This document shows positions 25,482 to 38,456 of a stretch of DNA of 61,580 nucleotides, one piece after another. The number at the start of each line of letters is the position of its first letter. Position 1 is the first letter of the stretch. The DNA lies in the NCBI RefSeq assembly GCF_002007215.1, contig NZ_MUHX01000015.1:1-61580 (forward strand), in the 5' to 3' direction. Made by a program: the position numbers and the translations under genes. A model generated the notes under the pieces. The model had not been told where the DNA came from. It ran no database searches and worked only from the letters and a program-made list of their open reading frames with translations. The DNA is from Pyramidobacter sp. C12-8. Lineage in GTDB: Bacteria; Synergistota; Synergistia; Synergistales; Dethiosulfovibrionaceae.

Positions 25482-26372
25482 TCACCTCGTCTTTCCGAGA
25501 ATTTTTTCGGCCAGCATTTCGCCGAGCCGCTGCGCTTCTTCGCGGCGTCCCGTCAACGACGCGCGAAGTTTCAGGCCGCGACTTTCGTCGGCGAAAAAGC
25601 CCGTCAGCTTCATCTCGCCGCCGCGAAGCTGCGCGCACGCGCCGACGGGCGACGCGCAGCCGCCGCCGAGCGCCGCCGAGAAGACTCGTTCGGCGCGGGC
25701 GCAGTCCGTCGCGTCGGGGTCGAAAACGGCGTCGAGCCAGTCTTCGTTTTTGTCGCCGGCGCGTCCTTGACAGGCGAGGATTCCCTGTCCCGGCGCGGGG
25801 ACGATCTCGTCGACCGAAAAGTAACGGCTGACGCGCGCGTTCAAGCCGAGGCGCGCCAGTCCCGCGGCCGCGAGGATCAGCGCCGAGAACTGGCCTTCGT
25901 CGAGCTTGCGCAGGCGCGTGCCGACGTTGCCGCGCACCGGACGCACCTCGGCGCCGGCAAACAGATCGAGCGCCTGCAGGCGGCGTCGCGCCGACGAGCA
26001 GCCGATCACAGCGCCGTTCATGGCCGAGACTCCGTCGGGCAGCACGAGCGCGTCGCGGGGATCGCCGCGACGGAAGCAGGCGAGCAACGGCAGCCGTTCG
26101 TCCTGCGCGGCGGGCAGGTCCTTGAGGCTGTGGACGGCCACGTCGATGCGGCCGTTGAGCAGGGCCTCTTCCAGTTCCCGCGTGAAAAGTCCCTTGATGC
26201 CGAACGCGTCCGACGCTTCCGAGAACGGTTTCATGTTCACGTCGCCGCTGGTGGCGATGGGCACGAGTTCGAGACGGTATTCGGGATGGGCGCGCCCGAC
26301 GGCATCCATGACAAGGCGCGTCTGCGCCAGCGCCAGATCGCTCTTGCGGCTGCCAAAACGAAGGATTTTCAT
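25482..26372 (-). CDS. hemC: Hydroxymethylbilane synthase (porphobilinogen deaminase)
   Basis: Polymerises four porphobilinogens to the linear tetrapyrrole hydroxymethylbilane. The 296-residue protein shows FGSRKSDLALAQT at the N-terminus, VAVHSLKDLPAA near residue 80, SSARRRLQ near 125, RGNVGTRLRKLDEGQFSALI near 148 and the dipyrromethane cofactor cysteine in ALGGGCASPVGAC near 236. Its ATG overlaps the stop of the upstream cbiJ-sirC gene (ATGA). Confidence 0.96.
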   Translation of the reverse strand: MKILRFGSRKSDLALAQTRLVMDAVGRAHPEYRLELVPIATSGDVNMKPFSEASDAFGIKGLFTRELEEALLNGRIDVAVHSLKDLPAAQDERLPLLACFRRGDPRDALVLPDGVSAMNGAVIGCSSARRRLQALDLFAGAEVRPVRGNVGTRLRKLDEGQFSALILAAAGLARLGLNARVSRYFSVDEIVPAPGQGILACQGRAGDKNEDWLDAVFDPDATDCARAERVFSAALGGGCASPVGACAQLRGGEMKLTGFFADESRGLKLRASLTGRREEAQRLGEMLAEKILGKTR

Positions 26373-27592
26373 CGGCGGTTTTCTTCTTTCCTATGGAGTT
26401 CTTCGGCGACGATCCCGGGCCAGATCTCTCTGAGGCGGTCGGCCAGGCGGCGCGTCAGAGCCGGATCGAGTCCGCCGCTCGACGCCGATACGGCGGCCGC
26501 GCCGCAATGAATCAGCGCGGGAAAGTAAAAAGTGCCCTCGGCGGCGTTGTCGGCGATGCTGACGGGGACGCCGCGTTTTTTCGCCGCGGCGGCGATCAGG
26601 CGGTTCTGTTCGCGATTGTCGGTGGCGGCCACGGCCAGGACCGCGCCGTCGAGGTCGCTCTCGCGCCATTCGCGCGCGGCGGTGTCGAAACCGTCCCATC
26701 CTTCGCAGAACGCGACGGCGACGGCGCGCACGTCGGCGCCGCAGCTTTTCAGCGTTTGCGCGCGCCGCAGGGCGACGGGGCCGCCGCCGATCAGCAGGGC
26801 TTTCTTGCCCTCGAGCGGCAGCAGCATCGGAAACAGCGGCGGACATTCGAGTTTCATCTCGCGCCGCAGCCACAGCATCGCTTCGTCGACAGTCGCCCCT
26901 TCTTCGTCACCGCGGCCGATAAGAATGACGCGCGCGCCGCGGTTCTGCGCCGCGCGCAGCTTTTCCTCCATGCCGCCGGACGCGCCGCCGTCCTTGGTGA
27001 CGATCACCGTCGCGCCGGTGGCCGCGAGCATTTGCTCGTTCATGGCGGCGCTGAACGCTCCCTGCATGGCGATCAGGTGCCCAGCGTCGTAGCCCAGTGC
27101 CTCGCATTGGGCGATCACGTCCGACGTGGGCAGCACGCGGGCGAAAAGACGCTCCTTTGCGCGGCTTACGCCCGCGAAGGCCGGCAGCTCTTTGCTGCCC
27201 ACCGTGAGCAGGACTTTCTCGCCGCCGCCGTCCAGCAGCGCCGCCGCCTCTTCCGGCGTGGCGACCGCGGTCACGTCGCCGAACAGCGGCGTTCTGGCGC
27301 GCGCCACGCGCAGCAGCTTCACGCCCGTGCGTTCGCAGGCGCGGCGCACGTTCTTCGTCACTTCCAGCGCGTAAGGGTGCGTGGCGTCGATCACGTGGGT
27401 GACCTTCTCGGCACGGAACAGATCTTCCATGGCCGTTTCGTCGAGACGGCCCGTGAGCACGCGCACGTTTTCGAGCCCTTCAAGCAGCTTGGCGCCGTAA
27501 GCGGTGGCCACGCAGCAAACGGCCGGCACGCCGCGGCGCAGCAGTTCGCGCGCCTCGGTCGTGCCGCCGAAGACCAGCAGCCGCCCGTTCAT
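26369..27592 (-). CDS. Precorrin-6A reductase fused to precorrin-2 dehydrogenase (CbiJ-SirC)
   Basis: Two-domain protein of 407 residues from MNGRLLVFGGTTEAREL. Residues 1-~248 are the CbiJ/CobK reductase (VIDATHPYALEVTKNVRRAC, LLTVGSKELPAFA, VLPTSDVIAQCEALGYDA, MQGAFSAAMNEQML, VTKDGGASGG). Residues ~260-407 match the NAD-dependent precorrin-2 dehydrogenase module of Met8/CysG/SirC (LEGKKALLIGGGPVALRRAQ, LAVAATDNREQNRLIAAAAK, ADNAAEGTFYFPA, SSGGLDPALTRRLADRLRE). The second domain makes sirohydrochlorin, the substrate for early cobalt insertion. A frame that continues upstream lies within cbiH and is rejected; the chosen ATG overlaps the cbiH stop. This pairing of non-consecutive steps is uncommon. 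Confidence 0.92.
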   Translation of the reverse strand: MNGRLLVFGGTTEARELLRRGVPAVCCVATAYGAKLLEGLENVRVLTGRLDETAMEDLFRAEKVTHVIDATHPYALEVTKNVRRACERTGVKLLRVARARTPLFGDVTAVATPEEAAALLDGGGEKVLLTVGSKELPAFAGVSRAKERLFARVLPTSDVIAQCEALGYDAGHLIAMQGAFSAAMNEQMLAATGATVIVTKDGGASGGMEEKLRAAQNRGARVILIGRGDEEGATVDEAMLWLRREMKLECPPLFPMLLPLEGKKALLIGGGPVALRRAQTLKSCGADVRAVAVAFCEGWDGFDTAAREWRESDLDGAVLAVAATDNREQNRLIAAAAKKRGVPVSIADNAAEGTFYFPALIHCGAAAVSASSGGLDPALTRRLADRLREIWPGIVAEELHRKEENRR

Positions 27593-28311
27593 GGCCGCTG
27601 ATAGCCGCGCGGCGTGACGAGGCGGCCGTCGAGGAATTTCGTGGCGCTGCTGCCGACGATGGCCGTGCAGAACATGTCGAGCTTCTCGTCGGCGAGTGCC
27701 CCCAGCGTGGTCAGATGCGCCTCTTCGCCGTCGCGCCCGGCGCTGCGCACCCAGCCAGCCGTCGTGTCGGCGCTTTTCGTCTTCAGCAGCGTTTCGCAGG
27801 CCAGACGCAGATTGTCGGGACGCCCGCGGCTCATGGGGTTGTAAAGGCAGATCACGAAATCGCCGGCCGCGGCCGCTTCGAGGCGGCGCGCGATCAGCTT
27901 CCACGGCGTGAGCAGGTCGCTGAGGCTGACGACGGCGAAGTCGTGCGTCAGCGGCGCGCCGAGCACGGCCGCGGCGGCGCAGGCCGCCGTGACGCCGGGC
28001 ACGACGGTCACCTCGTCGCGTCCCGCCGCCACTTCGAGCATAATGCCCGCCATGCCGTACACGCCGGGGTCGCCGCTGGAAACGACGCCTACCGTGCTCC
28101 CCGCCAGCGAACGGCGCAGCGCGTCTTCGCAGCGCTGCACTTCGCCCTTCATGGGCGAGACGACCAGTTCCTTGCGTCCCTCGAAACGGGGCGCGATCAG
28201 GTCGACGTACGTTTTGTAGCCGACGATGACGTCGCATTGTTCCAGCGCCGCGAGCGCGCGCGGCGTCAGCTGGTCTTCGCCTCCGGGGCCGAGGCCGACG
28301 ACGTAGATCAT
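27589..28311 (-). CDS. cbiH: Cobalt-precorrin-3B C17-methyltransferase CbiH
   Basis: SAM-dependent ring-contraction methyltransferase of corrin synthesis, 240 residues. Motifs: VVGLGPGGEDQLTPRA, SSGDPGVYGMAG near residue 80, VVPGVTAACAAAAVLGAPLT near 104, DFAVVSLSDLLTPW, and ICLYNPMSRGRPDNLR near 154, the last typical of CobJ/CbiH. It overlaps cbiG upstream and cbiJ-sirC downstream by 4 nt each. Confidence 0.94.
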   Translation of the reverse strand: MIYVVGLGPGGEDQLTPRALAALEQCDVIVGYKTYVDLIAPRFEGRKELVVSPMKGEVQRCEDALRRSLAGSTVGVVSSGDPGVYGMAGIMLEVAAGRDEVTVVPGVTAACAAAAVLGAPLTHDFAVVSLSDLLTPWKLIARRLEAAAAGDFVICLYNPMSRGRPDNLRLACETLLKTKSADTTAGWVRSAGRDGEEAHLTTLGALADEKLDMFCTAIVGSSATKFLDGRLVTPRGYQRP

Positions 28312-30062: not shown

Positions 30063-31292
30063 TTATCGTCCTTCTTTCTGTATGCCGGCGGTGAACGCCG
30101 AAAAGATGGTGACGGGGTTCTGCGCGGCCATGATGAGCGTGCCGCCGATCTTTTTGGCGCGGCCGACTGCCACCTGTACGGCGTCGAAATCATGGAAGCC
30201 GGCTCCGGCGAGGTTCTCGGCCGCGGCCGCGTAGGTTTTGAAGGCTACCGCCGAGACGACGACACGGATCCCTTCGCCGAGCGCGGCGACGGCGCGCAGC
30301 AGCTCCGGCAGTTCCGGGCCGCTGCCGCCGACGAAGACGTGCGTGGGGCGCGGCAGCGACGGCAGCACGGCGGCGTTGTCGCCCTCGTACAGCGCGACGT
30401 TGTGCCGGTGGAACTTTCTGACGTTGCGGGCGATCAGCGCCGCGGCTGCGGGATTTTTCTCCACGGCGCAGACCCGACCGTCTGCGCAGAACAGCGCCGC
30501 CGCGACCGTCACCGAGCCAGTGCCCGCGCCCAGATCCCAGAGCGTCGAATCGCGGCGCAGACGCAGCTCGTCGAGGATCGCCGAGCGCACGGTCTCGCGC
30601 GTCATCGGCACGTCCGCGCGGAGAAAATCGTCGTCTCGCGGGCGCGCCTGCGGCGCGCTCCACGGCGAAGGATTTTCGATCAGAACCAACGACAGATCGT
30701 CGTATTCCCGCGCCGCCAGTTCCGCGGGAGAACCGCGGCTGAGGCGCTGGTCGCCGTAGCTGAGCCGCTCGCCGACGGTGAGACGCAGGTGGTCCATGTC
30801 CCAGTCGGCAAGCAGGCGGCAGAGGCGGCGCGGGTTCCACTGCGGCCCGCAGAAGAAGATCGTCTTTCTGTTCTGGTCGGCGGCGTCGAGGACCTTCGCC
30901 TCGCCGAGATCGCGCCCGTGCCCGGAGAGGACAACGGCGTCGATCCACGTTTCGCGTGCGGCGGCGCACAGGCTTTGCAGCGAACTGACGCCGGGGATCA
31001 CTTCGAGGTCGTCGCCGGGGAAGCGTTTTTTGAGCAGCGGCAGTAAACTGAACACGCCCGCGTCGCCGGAGACGAGCACGGCCACGGAATTTCGGTCGAG
31101 CGCGGCGTCGACGGCGGCAAACGTCTCCTCGAATTTGCCGAGGGCGATGACGTTGGGATGGCCGCCCGCCAGCGCGCGATGGCGCGGCGCGGCGACCACA
31201 CACCCGGCGCGCCGGATCGTTTCGCGCGCGGCGGACGTCAGTTGATCGGCGCCGCCCGGGCCGACGCCGACGACGAAAAGTTTATTGCGCAT
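30063..31292 (-). CDS. cbiET: Cobalt-precorrin-6B/7 methyltransferase-decarboxylase CbiET fusion
   Basis: Two-domain enzyme of 409 residues methylating C5 and C15 and decarboxylating the C12 acetate. Residues 1-~205 are CbiE (FVVGVGPGGADQLTSAARE, LVSGDAGVFSLLPLL, VIPGVSSLQSLCAAARETW, IDAVVLSGHGRD). Residues ~215-400 are CbiT (DVPMTRETVRSAILDELRLR, LWDLGAGTGSVTVAAALF, VCAVEKNPAAAALIARN, VFVGGSG). Separate in the classical anaerobic pathway, the two are often fused, as in CobL. It overlaps cbiD by 11 nt. Confidence 0.95.
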   Translation of the reverse strand: MRNKLFVVGVGPGGADQLTSAARETIRRAGCVVAAPRHRALAGGHPNVIALGKFEETFAAVDAALDRNSVAVLVSGDAGVFSLLPLLKKRFPGDDLEVIPGVSSLQSLCAAARETWIDAVVLSGHGRDLGEAKVLDAADQNRKTIFFCGPQWNPRRLCRLLADWDMDHLRLTVGERLSYGDQRLSRGSPAELAAREYDDLSLVLIENPSPWSAPQARPRDDDFLRADVPMTRETVRSAILDELRLRRDSTLWDLGAGTGSVTVAAALFCADGRVCAVEKNPAAAALIARNVRKFHRHNVALYEGDNAAVLPSLPRPTHVFVGGSGPELPELLRAVAALGEGIRVVVSAVAFKTYAAAAENLAGAGFHDFDAVQVAVGRAKKIGGTLIMAAQNPVTIFSAFTAGIQKEGR

Positions 31293-32382
31293 GGGCGAGT
31301 TCCTCCGCGAAGGCCGCCGCGCCGGCGCTCGCGCCCAGCAGTCGGCCCTGATTGTCGATAAAAGCGGCTTCCACGGCGAGGTCGCCGAACATCCGCTCGC
31401 GGCAGCGCTTTGCCGTCACCTCGGCCAGCGTCGTCCAAAGGAAGTCGAGCTTTTCTTCGCGGACGATCTGCATGGCGACCTCGGTCGTAGTGCTCTCGTA
31501 AAGTTTCCTGACGATCTCGCGTCCCGCTCCGGCCAGAGCGGCCTGCGTGCAGAGGGCTTCGCGGCGGCCGTCGCCGGTGCGGTTGTAGGTGTCGAACGTT
31601 CCCGCGGCAACCTTGAGCAGCTTACCGGGGTGGCCGCAGATCAGCGCGCGTTCGAACTTGAGCCGCAGCGCCTCGTCGAGCACAAAGCCGATGTAGTTGC
31701 CCGTGTGCATGATGACGCGCCCGCCGATGTTCCATACGTGCCGCATGGCCTTTTCGCCGCTGTTGCCGAAGCACAGGCCGACGCACTTCAGCCCCGACGA
31801 AGCGAACGTGCTCAGTTCCAGCAAGAACGAAGCGTAGACCGACTCGACGTTGTACGGCTTGACGATGCCTGTGGTGCCCAGCACCGACAAACCGCCGGCG
31901 ATGCCGAGACGGGGGTTGAACGTGTGCGCGGCCTTTTCTTCGCCTCCGGGGATGGAGACGGTGACGCAGGCGCGGCGCGGGCCGATGACGGCGCGCAGCG
32001 CCTCTTCGATCATTTGGCGCGGCACGGGATTGACGGCCGCTTCGCCGACGGGGATTTTCAGCCCCGGCAGCGTCACTGTGCCCACGCCCGGGCCGGCCCT
32101 GAAGGAGACGGGGCCGTCGCCGTCGCCCAGTTCCACCGACGAGATCACCGTCATGCCGTCGGTGGCGTCGGGGTCGTCGCCGGCATCCTTGACGACGCCG
32201 CAGGCCGGAAAGGCGTACTCGACGATGTCGAGCGTGAGTTCCTTGCCGGCGGGCGTGACGATGCGCACCTGCGCGGGGCACCGCCCCGTCGTCAGGCGCA
32301 GCGCCGAAGCCTGCGCGGCCGCGGCGGCGCAGCTGCCGGTGGTGAAACCTTCGCGCAGGCCACGGCTATCGTGTAATTCCAT
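31282..32382 (-). CDS. cbiD: Cobalt-precorrin-5B C1-methyltransferase CbiD
   Basis: Anaerobic-pathway C1 methyltransferase, 366 residues, not homologous to the other methylases of the series. Typical regions are GLREGFTTGSCAAAAAQA at residue 8, GDDPDATDGM near 68, VGTVTLPGLKIPVGEAAVNP near 99, NPRLGIAGGLSVLGTTGIVK near 157 and ERALICGHPGKLLKVAAG near 245. It overlaps both neighbours (17 nt with cbiC, 11 nt with cbiET). Together with CbiG it is the clearest marker of the oxygen-independent route. Confidence 0.96.
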   Translation of the reverse strand: MELHDSRGLREGFTTGSCAAAAAQASALRLTTGRCPAQVRIVTPAGKELTLDIVEYAFPACGVVKDAGDDPDATDGMTVISSVELGDGDGPVSFRAGPGVGTVTLPGLKIPVGEAAVNPVPRQMIEEALRAVIGPRRACVTVSIPGGEEKAAHTFNPRLGIAGGLSVLGTTGIVKPYNVESVYASFLLELSTFASSGLKCVGLCFGNSGEKAMRHVWNIGGRVIMHTGNYIGFVLDEALRLKFERALICGHPGKLLKVAAGTFDTYNRTGDGRREALCTQAALAGAGREIVRKLYESTTTEVAMQIVREEKLDFLWTTLAEVTAKRCRERMFGDLAVEAAFIDNQGRLLGASAGAAAFAEELAHAQ

Positions 32383-32977
32383 AGAGCAGCGCGTTGAGGA
32401 CCGCCGAGGCGACGGCGGAGCCGCCCTTGCGTCCCATGGCGGCGATCGAGGGCACGGCGGTGCGCGCCAGGCGTTCCTTGGACTCGATCACGTTGACGAA
32501 ACCGACGGGCACGCCGACGACCAACGCCGGACGGGCCTCGCCCGCGTCGATCAGCTCGCAGAGGCGGATCAGCGCCGTCGGCGCGTTGCCGATGGCGAAG
32601 ATGGCCTGCGGCGTCTCGCGCACGGCCGCCTCCATGCTCACCACGGCGCGGGTGACGCCGCGCGACGCGGCTTCTTCGCGGACGGCGGCGTCCGACATGC
32701 GGCAGACGACCTGCACGCCCAGCGTCTGGCAGGCTTTTTTGTTGACGCCGGCGGCGGCCATCATCGTATCGGTGACAATGGTCGTCCCGGCGCGGAGCGC
32801 TTCGCGGGCGCGCCCGACCACGTTCGGCGTGAAGCGCAGGTTCTTCTGGAACTCGAAATCGGCGGTCGTATGGATGACGCGCATGACCACGGGCAGGTTC
32901 TCCTCCGGTCCTTGCCACGGTTCCATTTCGGCGACGATCGTTCTCATGCTCGCCTGTTCGATCTCTTCCGGTCTCAC
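32366..32977 (-). CDS. cbiC: Cobalt-precorrin-8 methylmutase CbiC
   Basis: Moves a methyl group from C11 to C12, giving cobyrinic acid. The conserved catalytic His is in MRVIHTTADFEF, followed by ALRAGTTIVTDTMMAAAGVN, RGVTRAVVSMEAA, FAIGNAPTALIRL and VVGVPVGFVNVIESKE. I place the start at GTG 32977 (VRPEEIEQASMRTIV), 6 nt from GAGGTG, giving 203 residues, which fits the family; starting at the later ATG would remove the N-terminal helix. It overlaps cbiD and follows the membrane-protein gene by 32 nt. Confidence 0.93.
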   Translation of the reverse strand: MRPEEIEQASMRTIVAEMEPWQGPEENLPVVMRVIHTTADFEFQKNLRFTPNVVGRAREALRAGTTIVTDTMMAAAGVNKKACQTLGVQVVCRMSDAAVREEAASRGVTRAVVSMEAAVRETPQAIFAIGNAPTALIRLCELIDAGEARPALVVGVPVGFVNVIESKERLARTAVPSIAAMGRKGGSAVASAVLNALLYGITR

Positions 32978-33009: not shown

Positions 33010-33903
33010 TCACAGACACAGCGGCAGCGCCGCCAGCGCCAGCGTCAGCAGGCTGAGCGCGGCCGACGCGGCGACGTTCCACAGCAGCATGGACTGGGCG
33101 ACGGCGCGCGGGAAAAAGCCGAAGTAATAGCCGGCGTTGGTGCGCACGAGCCGCGTGATCAGGCTCAGGCTGTTGCCGAAAAGCAGCGCGAAAACCGCCT
33201 GCGCGGTCGACAGCTCGCCCGCGGCCAGACTGCCCCCGGCCAGCGCCAGCGCCGCGGAAACGTGGGCGAAAGACGCCGCCGCCACCGCCATGGCGGGCAG
33301 GGGGAAAAAGGCGCTGCCGCGCAGCCAGAGCTGTAGATATTTTTCCGCCCATGGCACGACGAGCACGGCGAGCGCGTAGAAGAACCACGCCAGCGGCAGC
33401 GTTTTCAGCAGCTTGAAGCCGAATCTCCGCGCCGTTTCGCCGCCCGCCGCCGTTTCTTCCAGAGGCCGGTCGTCGTGTTCGCCGCGGTTGAGAATGAAAA
33501 GCTCGAGCGCGAATTTCGCCGCCGAGCGGAACAGCAGCGTCAGCGCGAAGAACGCGCCCGCCCAGCCGGCCAGACTGCACGACAAAACCATCGTCGCGAC
33601 CCAGCGGCGCGCGTAGGCCGGAAAAGCCAGCAGCAGCGTGCCCCATTTGGCCGTGCGCGGCGAAATGCGCCCGCTGTCCAGCGCCGAAGCTACCACGGCG
33701 GCGCCGGCTTTCGACGAGCCGATGCTGACGGTCAGCGCCGCGCCGAGCGTAGCGCCGATGCCCCATCGTTTCAGCCAGGGCAGGGCGCGCCGCAGCGCTT
33801 TGTCCGCCAGCCCCGTGCGGACGATCAGCGCGCCGATCAGAAAACCGGCGAGAATGTCGATCGTCAGCCGCAGTTCGCCGCGGAGCAGACGCGCCCAGTC
33901 CAT
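33010..33903 (-). CDS. Unassigned integral membrane protein in the cobalamin operon
   Basis: Membrane protein of 297 residues with about eight hydrophobic spans, inserted between cbiL (2-nt gap) and cbiC. Features seen: GLADKALRRALPWLKRWGIG near residue 32, a Gly/Ser-rich segment SIGSSKAGAAVVASALDSGR, RISPRTAKWGTLLLAFPAYA, and a polar loop (NRGEHDDRPLEETAAGGETA) in the middle. The pattern of two similar halves around small-residue-rich segments recalls nucleoside-recognition/Gate-domain proteins, but I cannot place it firmly. It is not CbiM, CbiN, CbiQ, CbiB or CobS. Position suggests cobalt or corrinoid movement (inference). Confidence 0.75.
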   Translation of the reverse strand: MDWARLLRGELRLTIDILAGFLIGALIVRTGLADKALRRALPWLKRWGIGATLGAALTVSIGSSKAGAAVVASALDSGRISPRTAKWGTLLLAFPAYARRWVATMVLSCSLAGWAGAFFALTLLFRSAAKFALELFILNRGEHDDRPLEETAAGGETARRFGFKLLKTLPLAWFFYALAVLVVPWAEKYLQLWLRGSAFFPLPAMAVAAASFAHVSAALALAGGSLAAGELSTAQAVFALLFGNSLSLITRLVRTNAGYYFGFFPRAVAQSMLLWNVAASAALSLLTLALAALPLCL

Positions 33904-33905
33904 GG

Positions 33906-34595
33906 TCAGCGCCACAGCAGCAGGATCGAAAGGTATTCCTCGGCGGGGCCCAGGGCCGCGGCGTCCGTGAAGATCTTTTGGTCGGGCAGACCGGCGCGGT
34001 CGATACGCAAAATCTTGTTCCACGGGCCGGCTTCTTCCACCGTCGAGCGGAGCTGTCCACGCAGCGCGCAGGGCTTGTAGACCGCGGCGGCGTCGGCCGC
34101 TTTCAGCGCAGCGGCGATCCGTTCGCGCGACGCCGTGGCGGGGACGATGGCGAGGATCTCGCTCCCCATGGCGAGGAACGAGCCGGACTTCGCCGCGGCC
34201 AGGCAGTGCGCCGAGATGCCGGGCGTCAGCTCGAGTTCCAGTTCGGGGACGATCTGCTTCCACAGCTCGTAAAGGTAGAAACCCGTGGCGTAGAGCGTAG
34301 AGTCGCCGATCACGGGCAACACGACCGTCTCGGCGTTTTGCCAGAGAGGGCGCAGCTCTTCCAGCTGCGCTTTCAGCGCCGCGTCGCGGGATGTCGCGTC
34401 GCCGGTCATCGGAAACAACACCGGCGTCGTTTTCAGATCGGGCAGATGCGGTCGTACGGCCTGTTCGGCCACGCTGGCCCGTTCCGCATGAGAATGGGGG
34501 CTGAGCACCAGGTCGGCCCGCTCGATCAGTTTCAGCGCGCCGGCGGTGACGAGATCGGGATCGCCGGGACCGACGCCGGCAACGATAAATTTCAT
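33906..34595 (-). CDS. cbiL: Cobalt-precorrin-2 C20-methyltransferase CbiL
   Basis: SAM-dependent C20 methylation, the first step after cobalt insertion. The 229-residue protein has IVAGVGPGDPDLVTAGALKL, VLPVIGDSTLYATGFYLYEL near residue 92, LELTPGISAHCLAAAKSG near 121 and AVYKPCALRGQL near 172. It starts 4 nt after the BtuF-like gene and is followed 2 nt later by the unassigned membrane protein gene. Confidence 0.94.
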   Translation of the reverse strand: MKFIVAGVGPGDPDLVTAGALKLIERADLVLSPHSHAERASVAEQAVRPHLPDLKTTPVLFPMTGDATSRDAALKAQLEELRPLWQNAETVVLPVIGDSTLYATGFYLYELWKQIVPELELELTPGISAHCLAAAKSGSFLAMGSEILAIVPATASRERIAAALKAADAAAVYKPCALRGQLRSTVEEAGPWNKILRIDRAGLPDQKIFTDAAALGPAEEYLSILLLWR

Positions 34596-34599
34596 GGGA

Positions 34600-35454
34600 T
34601 CACTCTCCGTAAAAAATGCGGATCAATTCCGCCCCGCCCGTTTTGAGCCCAAGCAGCGAGGGACGGCTCAGCCAGTACTCGGGGATCTGCGCGAGCTTGA
34701 CGGAAGCGAGCGCCGCCGCCCACGGGCGGGCTTTGACTTCGTCGAGCGAGGCGCGGTTCATCGGCCCGTGCTGGACGAGGTAGACGTCCAGTCCCCCGGC
34801 GAGCAGCTTCATGACGCGCTCTACTCCCCAGGGAGCGACGGCGCTGCCGCGGCGGATCGGTTCGGCTTCCGCGGCGGCGTTCGCGCCTCCGGCCAGTTCG
34901 ATCAGATGCGCCGCCCACGAATCGGGGGAACAGGTGTGCAGTTCCTTGGCCGTGGCTTCGACGAAGACCGACGGCGCGGGGCGGCCGCCTCGTCGCGCCG
35001 CCGCTGCCTGCCGGATTTCATCGCAGGCTTGCGCGAACTGGGCTTCCGCCGCCTGCGGAGCAACGCCGATCAGCGGCGCCAGCGCCCGCAGGTAGGCGGT
35101 GAAAGAGTCCCACGAGGGCGGATCGACGCGCATGACGGGAACTCCGGCGCGTTCGAGCACGCCGCGCAGTTCGGGATTTTGCTTTTCCACCAGCGTACGC
35201 GTCAGCACGAGATCCGGCTTGAGCGCCAGCAGCGCCTCGGCGCCGACGTTGAGGGCGAAGCGCGGCAGATCGGTGAGGCGCGATGGTTCGTCGTTTTTCG
35301 ACAGCGCGATCAACCTTCCCTCGCCGCCCAGGGCGATAATGTTGTCGGTGTGCCCCGAATAGAGCGAAACGATGCGCTCGTAAGCCGTCGCCGGCGCGGC
35401 CCAAACGAACGCCATCAGAAAAATGATCAGCGTTTTTTTGAAGAAGGATGCCAT
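34600..35454 (-). CDS. Periplasmic corrinoid/metal-complex binding protein, BtuF-like
   Basis: Substrate-binding component of the adjacent type II ABC importer, 284 residues. A signal peptide (KKTLIIFLMAFVWAAPATA) is followed by a PeripBP_2 fold: RIVSLYSGHTDNIIALGGEG, VGAEALLALKPDLVLTRTL near residue 75, VMRVDPPSWDSFTAYLRALA near 107 and FVEATAKELHTC near 163. It overlaps the ATPase gene by 28 nt. Cobalamin, cobinamide or another metal-tetrapyrrole is the likely ligand because of the riboswitch and neighbours; a siderophore cannot be excluded. Confidence 0.85.
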   Translation of the reverse strand: MASFFKKTLIIFLMAFVWAAPATAYERIVSLYSGHTDNIIALGGEGRLIALSKNDEPSRLTDLPRFALNVGAEALLALKPDLVLTRTLVEKQNPELRGVLERAGVPVMRVDPPSWDSFTAYLRALAPLIGVAPQAAEAQFAQACDEIRQAAAARRGGRPAPSVFVEATAKELHTCSPDSWAAHLIELAGGANAAAEAEPIRRGSAVAPWGVERVMKLLAGGLDVYLVQHGPMNRASLDEVKARPWAAALASVKLAQIPEYWLSRPSLLGLKTGGAELIRIFYGE

Positions 35455-36212
35455 GCTTTATCACCTTCGGGCGAAATGTAGGGGACGAACGGCGTGTCGT
35501 AAAGTTTTTCCAGCACGCCGCCGTCGATGCGATCCGCGCGCCCGGCGGCGATCAGTTCGCCGCCGCGGAGAGCGAGATAACGGTCGGCGCAGGACAGCGC
35601 GGCGTTGATGTCGTGGGCGACGACGATCACAGTTTTCCCGCCGGCGGCAAGCCCGCGCATGAGGCGGAAGGCATGCTGGGCCTGGCGGGGATCCATGGCC
35701 GAAGTCGGTTCGTCGAGCAAAAAGATGGGCGGATCCTGGGCCAGTACCATGGCGAGGAGCACGCGCTGCCGCTCGCCGCCCGACAGTTCGGTGACGGGGC
35801 GGAAGAGCAGCGACGCGATTTCCAGACGCTCGGCTGCCGCCTGAATGGCACGGTCGTCCGCGGGCGAGCGCCGAGCCAGCAGACGCTGGTACGGCAGACG
35901 GCCGAAACCGATCACGTCGTAGACGCTGAAAGCCGCTTTCATGACCGCCTGCTGGGCGACGACGCCGAGCAGGCGGCCGAGCTCGCGGCGAGGACAGCGC
36001 CGGATCTCGCGCCCGCCGAGCGCGAGGCTGCCCCGATAGGGCAAAAAACCGCCCAGCGTTTTGAGCAGCGTGCTTTTGCCGCTGCCGTTGGGGCCGATCA
36101 GAGCCGTCACCAACCCCGGTTCGACCGAGCCGGAAACGCCTCTGAGGACTTCGCGGTCCCCGTAGCCGGCGCTGAGATCGCGCAAACAATACGAAAGAGA
36201 CGGCGCGGTCAT
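35427..36212 (-). CDS. ABC transporter ATPase, BtuD/FecE type
   Basis: Cytoplasmic ATPase of the corrinoid/metal-complex importer, 261 residues. Walker A LIGPNGSGKSTLLKTLGG near residue 38, Q-loop VVAQQAVMKAAFSVYDVIGF near 83, signature ELSGGERQRVLLAMVLAQ near 142, Walker B IFLLDEPTSAMDP near 164 and H-loop VVAHDINAAL near 197. It overlaps the permease gene by 4 nt and the binding-protein gene by 28 nt, so the three are one transport unit (order permease, ATPase, binding protein). Confidence 0.9.
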   Translation of the reverse strand: MTAPSLSYCLRDLSAGYGDREVLRGVSGSVEPGLVTALIGPNGSGKSTLLKTLGGFLPYRGSLALGGREIRRCPRRELGRLLGVVAQQAVMKAAFSVYDVIGFGRLPYQRLLARRSPADDRAIQAAAERLEIASLLFRPVTELSGGERQRVLLAMVLAQDPPIFLLDEPTSAMDPRQAQHAFRLMRGLAAGGKTVIVVAHDINAALSCADRYLALRGGELIAAGRADRIDGGVLEKLYDTPFVPYISPEGDKAWHPSSKKR

Positions 36213-37225
36213 TTTCTTTTCACCAGAATCCAGCAGAAAAAAGGGCCGCCGATCAGCGCCGTGATCACGCCGACGGGCAGTTCCCCGAGACGCTGGGCCG
36301 CTCCGTCCGCCAGCGCCGTCAGCAGAGCGCCGGCGAGGAAGCTGAAGACCAGCAGCGGCCGGTGCGAGGGCCCGATGAGGAGCCGCAGGACATGCGGCGC
36401 CACCAGCCCCACGAAACCGATGATGCCGAAACTGCTCACGCTCATGGCCGTGCCCAGCGACGCGGCGCAGAGCAGACGCCGCCGCAGTTTTTTCTCGTCG
36501 ACGCCGAGCATTTCCCCCTGCCCTTCGCCGAGCGAGACGGCGTCGAGCCGTCGCCCGTAAAGCCAGGCCGGGACCAGCGTGATCGCCGCGCCCAGCCAGA
36601 CCAGACGCGCCGCCGCGGGCGAAGCGCCGGAAAAACTGCCCATCAGCCAGAGCACGATCGCTCCCAGCTTGTCGTCGGCGACGGCCTTGAGAAGCGTCAC
36701 CCCCGCCGAGAGCACGGCGTTGGCGACGATGCCCGCCAGCACCAGATACGCGCCGCTGCCGCCGTTTTTGCGCGCGATCAGATTGACCAGCGCCAGCGAA
36801 CCGAGCGCGCCGGCGAACGCCGTCGGCGTCACCGCCAAGCGGTCGAAGAAAAATCCCACCGCGCCGCCGAACGCCGCGCCCGCGGCGATGCCCAGCGTGT
36901 AAGGTTCGGCCAACGGATTGGCCAAAAGCCCCTGCAGGACGACACCCGAGACGGCGAGCAGCCCCCCGGCTCCCGCCGCCGCGAAGAACCGCGGCAGGCG
37001 GACGGCGCGGATCACCAGCGCCTCGGCGGTCTCGCTCTCGGCGGCGGGAAGAAACGGCGAGAGCAGTTCAAAGACGCGGGAGAGTGGAATATTCCACTCT
37101 CCCTGCGTGATTCGCCACAGCGCCGTCAGAAAGAGCAGAACGCCGAGCGCCGCTCCGAGGCGGAAGTATCGCGCACGAAGTTGCGAACGCCAGCGCTCGA
37201 GATTTCCGACAGGCGACGGAGGCAT
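36209..37225 (-). CDS. ABC transporter permease, BtuC/FecCD type
   Basis: Inner-membrane permease of 338 residues with about ten spans and FecCD-family motifs: VIRAVRLPRFFAAAGAGGLL near residue 70, SGVVLQGLLANPLAEPYTLG near 92, AGAAFGGAVGF, WLMGSFSGASPAAARL near 190, FVGLVAPHVLRLLIGPSHRP near 270 and the C-terminal GELPVGVITALIGGPFFCWI. The start at 37225 is 2 nt after the cbiK stop. A much longer frame upstream runs through cbiK and is rejected. First gene of the BtuCDF-like set. Confidence 0.92.
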   Translation of the reverse strand: MPPSPVGNLERWRSQLRARYFRLGAALGVLLFLTALWRITQGEWNIPLSRVFELLSPFLPAAESETAEALVIRAVRLPRFFAAAGAGGLLAVSGVVLQGLLANPLAEPYTLGIAAGAAFGGAVGFFFDRLAVTPTAFAGALGSLALVNLIARKNGGSGAYLVLAGIVANAVLSAGVTLLKAVADDKLGAIVLWLMGSFSGASPAAARLVWLGAAITLVPAWLYGRRLDAVSLGEGQGEMLGVDEKKLRRRLLCAASLGTAMSVSSFGIIGFVGLVAPHVLRLLIGPSHRPLLVFSFLAGALLTALADGAAQRLGELPVGVITALIGGPFFCWILVKRK

Positions 37226-37227
37226 GT

Positions 37228-38121
37228 TTACTTCATCATTTCCTTCAGGTGTTCCACGAAGGCGGCGGTAACGTTCTTGTCCTCGCCAAGGCCCTTGATG
37301 TAAGTCTCGACGGCGAAGCCTTCCTTCTTGAGGATGCTGTACCAGGACTCCGGATCGTCTTTGTCGGCCATGTCGTTGTTGGCGTGGTCGCCGGCCACGA
37401 TCATCAGCGGCGAGACGAGCGTCTTCTTGTAGCCGGCTTTCTTCAGCGCGGCGACGACGTCTTCGATCAGCGGCGTGTTCTCGACGGTGCCGATGAAGAA
37501 ACGGCCGTCGGCGACTTTGTTTAGGGCGACCTGAAGCTGGCTGTACATGGCGTTGGCGATATGGTGCGGCGTGCCGTGTCCCATCAGCACGACGGCGGTG
37601 TCCTTGCCGGCGAGTTTTTCGAATCTCTTCACGAGGATCGCGGCCATCTCGTCGCAGCCTTCGACGCTGGACAGGAACGTCTTGCCGAGGCGCAGATCCT
37701 TGATGCCGTATTTGCCTTTCAGTTCGCCCCAAGCTTCGACAACGTTCTTGATCTCGTCGTATTCGGCGCCGGGGATGATGTGCGTCGGCATCACGCCGAC
37801 CGTAGCGAACCCTTCGTCGTTCAGCTGCGCCAAAGCCATGACGGGCGTGGGGGGAACGTTCTTCTTGCCTTCGCGGGCCAGCTTGCGGCGGATGATGTTG
37901 GAGGTAAAGGCCAAGCGCACCTCGGCGCCGGGGAACGCCTTTTTGGCGGCGACGACCAGATTGTCGATCGCTTTGCGGGCGCTGGGCATGGAGGTGCCGA
38001 AAGAGGTGATCAGGATGGCCTGTTTCTCTTCCTTTTTGGCTTCCTTGGCGCAGGCGATCCCGGAGAAAGCGACGGCCACGAGGGTGACGGCGAGAATCAT
38101 GGACTTAAAGGACATATTCAT
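37228..38121 (-). CDS. cbiK: Exported sirohydrochlorin cobaltochelatase, CbiK type
   Basis: CbiK-family chelatase, which inserts Co(II) into sirohydrochlorin. The family core is clear: AILITSFGTSMPSARKAIDN, AFTSNIIRRKL, VMPTHIIPGAEYDE, the metal-binding His in VVLMGHGTPHHIANAMYSQL and SPLMIVAGDHANNDMADKDD. The N-terminus (MNMSFKSMILAVTLVAVAFS, then GIACAKE) is a signal peptide with a probable cut after ACA, so the protein should be periplasmic, like the Desulfovibrio CbiKp form. I choose ATG 38121, 7 nt behind GAAAGG (297 residues); longer starts would run through the riboswitch terminator. First gene of the operon. Confidence 0.9.
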   Translation of the reverse strand: MNMSFKSMILAVTLVAVAFSGIACAKEAKKEEKQAILITSFGTSMPSARKAIDNLVVAAKKAFPGAEVRLAFTSNIIRRKLAREGKKNVPPTPVMALAQLNDEGFATVGVMPTHIIPGAEYDEIKNVVEAWGELKGKYGIKDLRLGKTFLSSVEGCDEMAAILVKRFEKLAGKDTAVVLMGHGTPHHIANAMYSQLQVALNKVADGRFFIGTVENTPLIEDVVAALKKAGYKKTLVSPLMIVAGDHANNDMADKDDPESWYSILKKEGFAVETYIKGLGEDKNVTAAFVEHLKEMMK

Positions 38122-38170
38122 CAGACGACCTTTCATGAAATTTTTTTCCGAAGCTCGGGCCTCGGGAGAC

Positions 38171-38198: not shown

Positions 38199-38280
38199 CT
38201 TCCGCCGCGGCTGTCACTGGTCAGCCGCACAGGAGTTCGCCCACGCAAACATTCCCCCTTTGCAAGCTCCCTTTAAAGAA

Positions 38281-38402
38281 TATTCTGGCTTCTCTTCATC
38301 CTCGTCCGAGTCTTCCCAATAACGCGATCAGTGACGTGCTTCGGATTTGTCCGAGTTACAGCGGCGGGGCCGCGCCGGATTTCCACCGGCTTCCTCTTTA
38401 AA
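38281..38402 (-). promoter_or_regulatory. Cobalamin (B12) riboswitch aptamer
   Basis: On the minus strand this stretch holds the conserved cobalamin aptamer landmarks in order: GAAGCCGGTGGAAATCCGGC, the core CCCCGCCGCTGTAA, CGTCACTG, then GGGAAGACTCGG and the B12-box end GAGAAGCCAGAATA. It lies between a consensus promoter and an intrinsic terminator, upstream of cbiK. Ligand binding is expected to end transcription before the operon. The sequence between aptamer and terminator (38199-38280) is the probable switching region. Confidence 0.95.
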
Positions 38403-38427
38403 CGGAGTTCCATGTTCGATTGCCGTC

Positions 38428-38456
38428 ATTATAACACGGAGTCGCAGCCGCTTCAA
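38428..38456 (-). promoter_or_regulatory. Promoter of the cobalamin operon
   Basis: Minus strand: TTGAAG (38451-38456), 17-nt spacer, perfect TATAAT (38428-38433). Transcription would start near 38421, about 20 nt before the riboswitch aptamer. Confidence 0.85.

Follow-up and report, generated by a model that had tools for sequence, protein, structure and literature searches.

A CbtX-like membrane protein in the cobamide operons of Synergistota, a candidate exporter of sirohydrochlorin

How do bacteria that make vitamin B12 with a seemingly exported cobaltochelatase, some of them without CbiM, get cobalt into the ring? The question is raised by an operon of Pyramidobacter sp. C12-8, a member of the Synergistota, on contig NZ_MUHX01000015.1 of assembly GCF_002007215.1, whose 61,580 nucleotides (positions 1 to 61,580) are called the window here. 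The analysis described below leads to an answer that can be tested. At its center is a protein of 297 residues, which we call X. A sequence-only reading of the window had placed the gene 2 nt past cbiL and just before cbiC, with a riboswitch upstream, and both the coordinates and the RF00174 match agree with this placement (Table 1). The minus-strand frame begins with an ATG at 33903 and its stop ends at 33010; the 2-nt gap runs from the end of cbiL at 33906, and the probable GTG start of cbiC at 32977, which was picked by hand, lies 32 nt past the stop of X. A plus-strand reading of the same interval was rejected because it contains an internal stop.

Table 1. Features of the cobamide operon in the window
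Feature	Positions	Strand	Basis
Cobalamin riboswitch, 5′ of the operon	38258..38435	-	RF00174, 79.5 bits
CbiK, sirohydrochlorin cobaltochelatase	37228..38136	-	PF06180, E 4e-66; start codon picked by hand
BtuC-like (FecCD) ABC permease	36209..37225	-	PF01032, E 7.5e-74; best NCBIfam model BtuC, below cut-off
BtuD-like ABC ATPase	35427..36212	-	PF00005; best NCBIfam model haem ABC ATPase, below cut-off
BtuF-like periplasmic binding protein	34600..35454	-	PF01497; best NCBIfam model BtuF, below cut-off
CbiL, cobalt-factor II / precorrin-2 C20-methyltransferase	33906..34595	-	PF00590; TIGR01467, 150.4 bits (cut-off 163.25)
X, CbtX-like (Gate-type) membrane protein, 297 aa	33010..33903	-	ORF, homologues, predicted fold
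CbiC	32366..32977	-	PF02570, E 1e-73
CbiD	31282..32382	-	PF01888
CbiE-CbiT fusion	30063..31292	-	PF00590 and methyltransferase domains; CbiET name assigned here
CbiJ fused to SirC/CysG-N-like NAD-binding domain	26369..27604	-	PF02571 and PF13241

The operon runs on the minus strand in the order riboswitch-cbiK-btuC-btuD-btuF-cbiL-X-cbiC-cbiD-cbiET-cbiF-cbiG-cbiH-cbiJ-sirC-hemC-cobA-hemD-hemB, with cbiF, cbiG, cbiH, hemC, cobA-hemD, and hemB named by eye. The position of X within this order suggests that it is under control of the riboswitch. CbiK of the window carries a hydrophobic, signal-peptide-like N-terminal segment ahead of its catalytic domain, and the fusion with CbiJ would fill the SirC role in the step that forms sirohydrochlorin. 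A second genome of the same species (G011, locus L322) is identical to the window across 8.8 kb except for one substitution and a gap of a single base. That gap sits in cbiK, which is intact in the window, and breaks the reading frame, as a natural change or a sequencing error. That no other cobalt transporter is visible, as the sequence-only reading had it, holds for the window apart from its BtuFCD-type ABC importer but not for the genome, where a sole CbiM match (PF01891, E 7e-50) lies on a separate contig (G000:C174:69266-69847). Genes for DUF4198, CbiL-type, and CbiQ proteins were seen by eye around CbiM (L011, L044), an arrangement that we take to be reminiscent of the nickel version, NikKLMQO.

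Family searches do not place X among the known cobalt importers. With the limit set at E 1, the window protein has no match in Pfam; the one NCBIfam model reported for it gives 16.6 bits where 300 are required, and tblastn at E 0.01 found no copy on plasmids. CbiM (PF01891), NiCoT, and HupE/UreJ are likewise missing from the 10 families matched by 32 Synergistota members of the X family, as had been judged by eye from the sequence; what X would have in common with CbiMNQO, NiCoT, and HupE is a role in the cobalt supply for cobamides (PMC7689651, excerpt). The suggested comparison with the nucleoside-recognition or Gate families gave a mixed outcome, since weak matches to Gate (PF07670), the best at 6.6e-5 and the limit set at E 1, were obtained for 7 of the 32 members, whereas the window protein gave none and so falls short of the Pfam gathering cut-off. 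A homologue encoded beside cbiK in another order (see below) reaches 28.0 bits against Gate, under the gathering cut-off of 29.6 bits.

A relative with a name exists nevertheless. The accessible part of Rodionov 2004 (PMC545781) gives the name cbtX (COG3366) to a gene of delta-proteobacteria and some archaea that clusters with cbiK and whose product is predicted to transport cobalt. It places cbiK-cbiL and btuCDF of such genomes under the control of a B12 element, the last of these being termed a vitamin B12 transport system in Desulfovibrio. An excerpt of a 2009 paper (PMC2667541) lists CbtX among the predicted cobalt transporters of seven archaeal species. Among the papers listed in a literature search on CbtX/COG3366, cobalt transport stands as a prediction and no experimental paper was seen. 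A contig scan with one narrow peptide pattern gave 39 relatives, nearly all of them Synergistota by title, a restriction that the narrowness of the pattern makes uninformative about wider spread. A search of 389 relatives went beyond the phylum, matching G207 at 3e-30, G205 and G352 at about 1e-13, and G280 marginally. In the order to which G207 belongs, hereafter the second order, the profile matches 193 of 219 sampled genomes and CbiK is found in 212 of the 219. We take this order to be Desulfovibrionales because its clusters share the published layout. Two of its proteins that adjoin cbiK match the X profile at E 3.5e-23 and 3.0e-22. In 20 chosen stretches, the match lies upstream of CbiK-BtuC-BtuD-BtuF-CbiL in two and away from that cluster in the others. 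At the best-scoring CbiK locus of each of 30 genomes, an X-like match stands upstream on the same strand in seven; BtuC and BtuD follow CbiK in six of these, and the seventh stretch ends there. X is thus homologous, by sequence, to proteins that occupy the published place of CbtX, upstream of cbiK-btuCD, and its kind is therefore not new. The proposal that X is a new cobalt or corrinoid transporter is borne out in the sense that fold, family, and context point to a transporter that serves the cobalt-related portion of cobamide synthesis, but the novelty falls away with the naming of cbtX in 2004. Like CbtX, X is a membrane protein encoded in a cbiK cluster, as seen in the window operon and in the 57 of 60 X loci that have cbiL, btuF, or cbiK directly upstream. 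In contrast to the second-order copies, which precede cbiK, X mostly follows cbiL; the Synergistota proteins also form a clade of their own and differ in candidate site residues.

An AlphaFold2 model of X built from 38 rows (pLDDT 88.7) is all helix, with helix breaks at 63 (51-62/64-76) and 214 (202-213/215-227) that in the model resemble the two hairpins of elevator transporters. The nearest solved structures are concentrative nucleoside transporters (CNT), 8tzd with Z 11.7, rmsd 5.9, and 274 aligned residues and 5l2a with Z 10.4 over 272 residues, although a Z of about 11 is within reach of unrelated helical models; Pho90, NaDC3, INDY, TRAP, and ArsB follow in the ranking. Foldseek with the model gave nothing at E 0.001 (best 5l2b, 0.28), and when the X alignment was compared with the sequences of solved structures, no match appeared up to E 1. 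Within the set of CNT-type and elevator proteins compared (CNT3, CNTnw, INDY, TRAP, and ArsB), the likeness to CNT extends over almost the whole length of X, but X is shorter, its identity to the three best CNT rows is 7-10%, and likeness of fold shows no cargo.

Several basic residues are conserved in X. Across 59 Synergistota rows (60 less the fragment L045), positions K/R65, R100, K/R130, R251, and R254 are basic in all 59, and position 214 is basic (H/K/R) in 54, with His in 50. Acidic columns are E10 and D/E34, each at 56 of 59. No column of the 59 rows has Cys, Asp, or Met at 90% or more, and His reaches at most 85%. In 26 rows from the second order, position 65 is not basic, position 100 is His, and position 214 is Glu in all; R130, R251, and R254 are common to both groups, with R251 replaced by Lys in two second-order rows. 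The two sets of proteins share a scaffold and differ at positions that are likely to contact the cargo.

Which step X serves is indicated by its neighbors. Sixty X loci were read (the window and 59 from other genomes), a subset of the 93 genomes with X. The gene directly upstream is cbiL in 49, btuF in seven, cbiK in one, and another gene in three, one of which ends at a contig edge. These neighbors belong to cobalt insertion or the step that follows it, and the idea of a membrane factor for late steps accordingly finds no support. Genes of the cbi set lie within the stretch in 57 of the 60 loci. In one large genus (g19), X stays beside cbiL and CbiK, mostly followed by BtuC, sits elsewhere. 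A replacement for X was sought in members of this genus that lack it and rejected, as in the nine loci found (L196-L204) a crude hydropathy count gave no multi-span protein for the gene that follows cbiL.

The phylum-wide distribution agrees with a biosynthetic role. The X protein sequence matches 92 of 185 Synergistota genomes and the 32-row profile 93, and CbiC, CbiK, and CbiM are present in 107, 114, and 135 of the 185, respectively. X and CbiC occur together in 85 genomes, X only in eight, CbiC only in 22, and neither in 70 (p 4e-22), and the counts for X and CbiM are 73 both, 20 X only, 62 CbiM only, and 30 neither (p 0.10); these p values ignore kinship, and many of the 185 genomes are fragmented. 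For X and CbiK the counts are 87 both, six X only, 27 CbiK only, and 65 neither. No X genome among the 185 lacks both CbiC and CbiK. Nearly all genomes with X thus have genes of cobamide synthesis. The refuting case, in which most homologues would stand apart from cobalamin genes and have some other known function, does not apply in Synergistota; in the second order the stretches that were read mostly do lie away from cbi genes, and no established role was found for those copies. A CbiM match is absent from 17 of the 85 genomes that have both X and CbiC, and X as a substitute for a missing CbiM was rejected for want of any anti-correlation between the two. In sum, X very probably belongs to the elevator-like secondary transporters of the inner membrane, is of the CbtX/Gate kind, and works for the step of cobamide synthesis in which cobalt is inserted.

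The N-terminus of CbiK is where the cargo question takes shape. A signal-peptide-like hydrophobic segment precedes the catalytic domain at 68 of 73 Synergistota loci. Calls were made by eye and from hydropathy, the best 11-residue mean being at least 2.23 in these and at most 1.5, or without any extension, in the other five (G003, G008, G093, G049, and G047). The table holds 73 of 77 hits, leaving out L066 and L070 (both stretches end inside cbiK), L156 (a second copy), and L181 (a repeat of one locus); L155, whose N-terminus is incomplete, was scored as signal-peptide from L156 of the same genome. The comparison covers CbiK; cytoplasmic chelatases of the CbiX type (PF01903) may be present as well. 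In Synergistota genomes with CbiK, one match per genome is the usual number, but in one genus five genomes (G085, G086, G088, G090, and G091; loci L172 and L174) have a second, divergent match at E about 5e-25 to 3e-28 besides the strong one. A gene for BtuC, BtuD, or BtuF lies directly after CbiK at 59 of the 67 segment-bearing loci with room for one and at none of the five without the segment (p 9e-5), and the segment-bearing genomes divide into 46 with X and 22 without as against one with X and four without among the others (p 0.051), related genomes being counted separately in both tests. A version of the second test confined to CbiC genomes was discarded, since G163, which it counted, has no CbiC match. 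Absence of the segment thus tracks absence of the btu ABC gene strongly and absence of X weakly. The exception among the five is G047, where X stands beside a CbiK that has neither the segment nor a BtuC; CbiC is present in three of the other four, and the fourth, G049, has no X, no CbiC, and no segment. X was not found in 22 of the 68 genomes with segment-bearing CbiK, of which 16 have CbiC and some, such as G058 and G095, are nearly complete, and therefore X is not always needed. The sequence of the segment suggests that CbiK is exported. In the second order, the signal-like segment is present in all 32 CbiK rows, drawn from the best-scoring CbiK of 30 genomes and two stretches with two rows being the same gene; most genomes of that order have a second CbiK match besides. 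Six Synergistota loci (L086, L089, L092, L093, L094, and L179) have a single BtuF-like gene between cbiK and cbiD with no adjoining BtuC or BtuD, and its permease, if any, must sit elsewhere.

A seemingly exported CbiK, btu genes that accompany only that form, the linkage of X to CbiL, and a basic site in X together suggest an export loop. X would carry sirohydrochlorin, the ring still without its metal, out of the cytoplasm and into the periplasm; exported CbiK would insert cobalt that has crossed the outer membrane; BtuFCD would return cobalt-sirohydrochlorin to the cytoplasm, and CbiL would then methylate it. We tentatively favor this loop over import of Co2+, with both cargo and direction deduced from the surrounding evidence. 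Sirohydrochlorin is a poly-carboxylate, which the conserved basic residues of X would suit. A need to bring the product back into the cell would explain why a btu gene follows segment-bearing CbiK only, and the linkage of X to cbiL, btuF, and cbiK, its co-occurrence with CbiC, and its absence from four of the five genomes with segment-less CbiK are in favor as well. Several observations pull the other way. The 22 genomes that have segment-bearing CbiK and no X found, 16 of them with CbiC, count against the loop, and a cytoplasmic CbiX-type chelatase may exist. G047 pairs X with a segment-less CbiK, and the test of segment against X is weak; G049, one of the X-less genomes without the segment, has no CbiC. 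E10 and D/E34 are conserved and arginines can be structural, the structural match is at Z about 11 with weak Foldseek support, and cobalt is the cargo that the literature predicts for the homologue. We know of no example of an exporter for a cobalamin ring intermediate. A literature search for sirohydrochlorin export found none, with a narrow query that makes this a weak test.

The serious rival is that X imports Co2+ for the cobaltochelatase or the cytoplasm, the role that the 2004 paper (PMC545781, accessible part) assigned to CbtX because its gene clusters with cbiK, a possibility that we rate as real if somewhat doubtful. The X homologues upstream of cbiK in seven of 30 second-order loci fit it, as do the X genomes with CbiC and no CbiM match, the retention of X beside a segment-less CbiK in G047, and the conserved acids E10 and D/E34. 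However, a periplasmic CbiK, if such it is, needs no cytoplasmic cobalt, and the genomes most in need of imported cobalt, those with segment-less CbiK, lack X in four of five cases. X and CbiM show no anti-correlation, and the His100 and Glu214 of the second-order proteins are replaced in X by Arg100 and His214 with a basic residue at 65.

Two further readings give the Btu proteins another task. BtuFCD could be an ordinary vitamin B12 importer, with X moving a corrinoid or helping to do so in salvage; BtuC and BtuF do score best against vitamin B12 models, below cut-off, a riboswitch lies upstream of the operon, and in the 2004 paper, in its accessible part (PMC545781), btuCDF of Desulfovibrio is regarded as a system for vitamin B12 transport. 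We consider salvage unlikely, since X is nearly absent without CbiC and CbiK and so tracks synthesis rather than uptake, a btu gene follows only segment-bearing CbiK, and in one large genus X adjoins cbiL with CbiK and BtuC elsewhere. Less probable again is that haem or a different metallo-tetrapyrrole is what the cluster deals with and that X moves that compound. Haem binding by the Desulfovibrio protein CbiKP, reportedly found by Lobo in 2017, would fit, as would the best NCBIfam model for BtuD, a haem ABC ATPase below cut-off. CbiKP is also described as periplasmic in the accessible part of PMC4063343. Yet cbiL is the most constant neighbor of X, and the single CbiK of most CbiK-bearing genomes would have to serve cobamide synthesis.

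If sirohydrochlorin is exported by X, toxic free cobalt would be kept from the cytoplasm and a biosynthetic pathway would cross the inner membrane twice. It is conceivable, if doubtful, that in Synergistota the step that commits the pathway to cobamides takes place beyond the inner membrane, with X exporting a ring intermediate so that free cobalt need never enter; as part of that same uncertain picture, X would be a CbtX-like scaffold with changed site residues. New here are the signal-like N-terminus of the partner chelatase CbiK, its coupling with a btu gene, the lack of X in four of the five genomes without it, and the changed basic residues of Synergistota X. The label of cobalt transporter given to CbtX in 2004 should not be transferred to X without a test.

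The tree of the family places the 32 Synergistota rows in one clade (100/100) and nests the cbiK-linked second-order rows within their own order with 83-94% support, on long stems. Recruitment beside cbiK may, judging from this topology, have happened twice, or the long branches may mislead. Second-order X-like copies that were read (L272, L274, L276, L279, L285, L288, L290, and L239) are for the most part not near cobalamin genes and have varied surroundings, and no constant neighbor was obvious in eight loci outside cbi clusters, seven of them from the second order. One genome (G535) has three X-like copies, and the 16 kb stretch of L290 contains cbiC about 6 kb from the X-like gene. Within Synergistota, one locus (L175, G139:C130) from a 65% complete genome with CbiC and no X found has CbiM about 0.2 kb past a cobalamin riboswitch, a location that would suit an ECF importer of cobalt.
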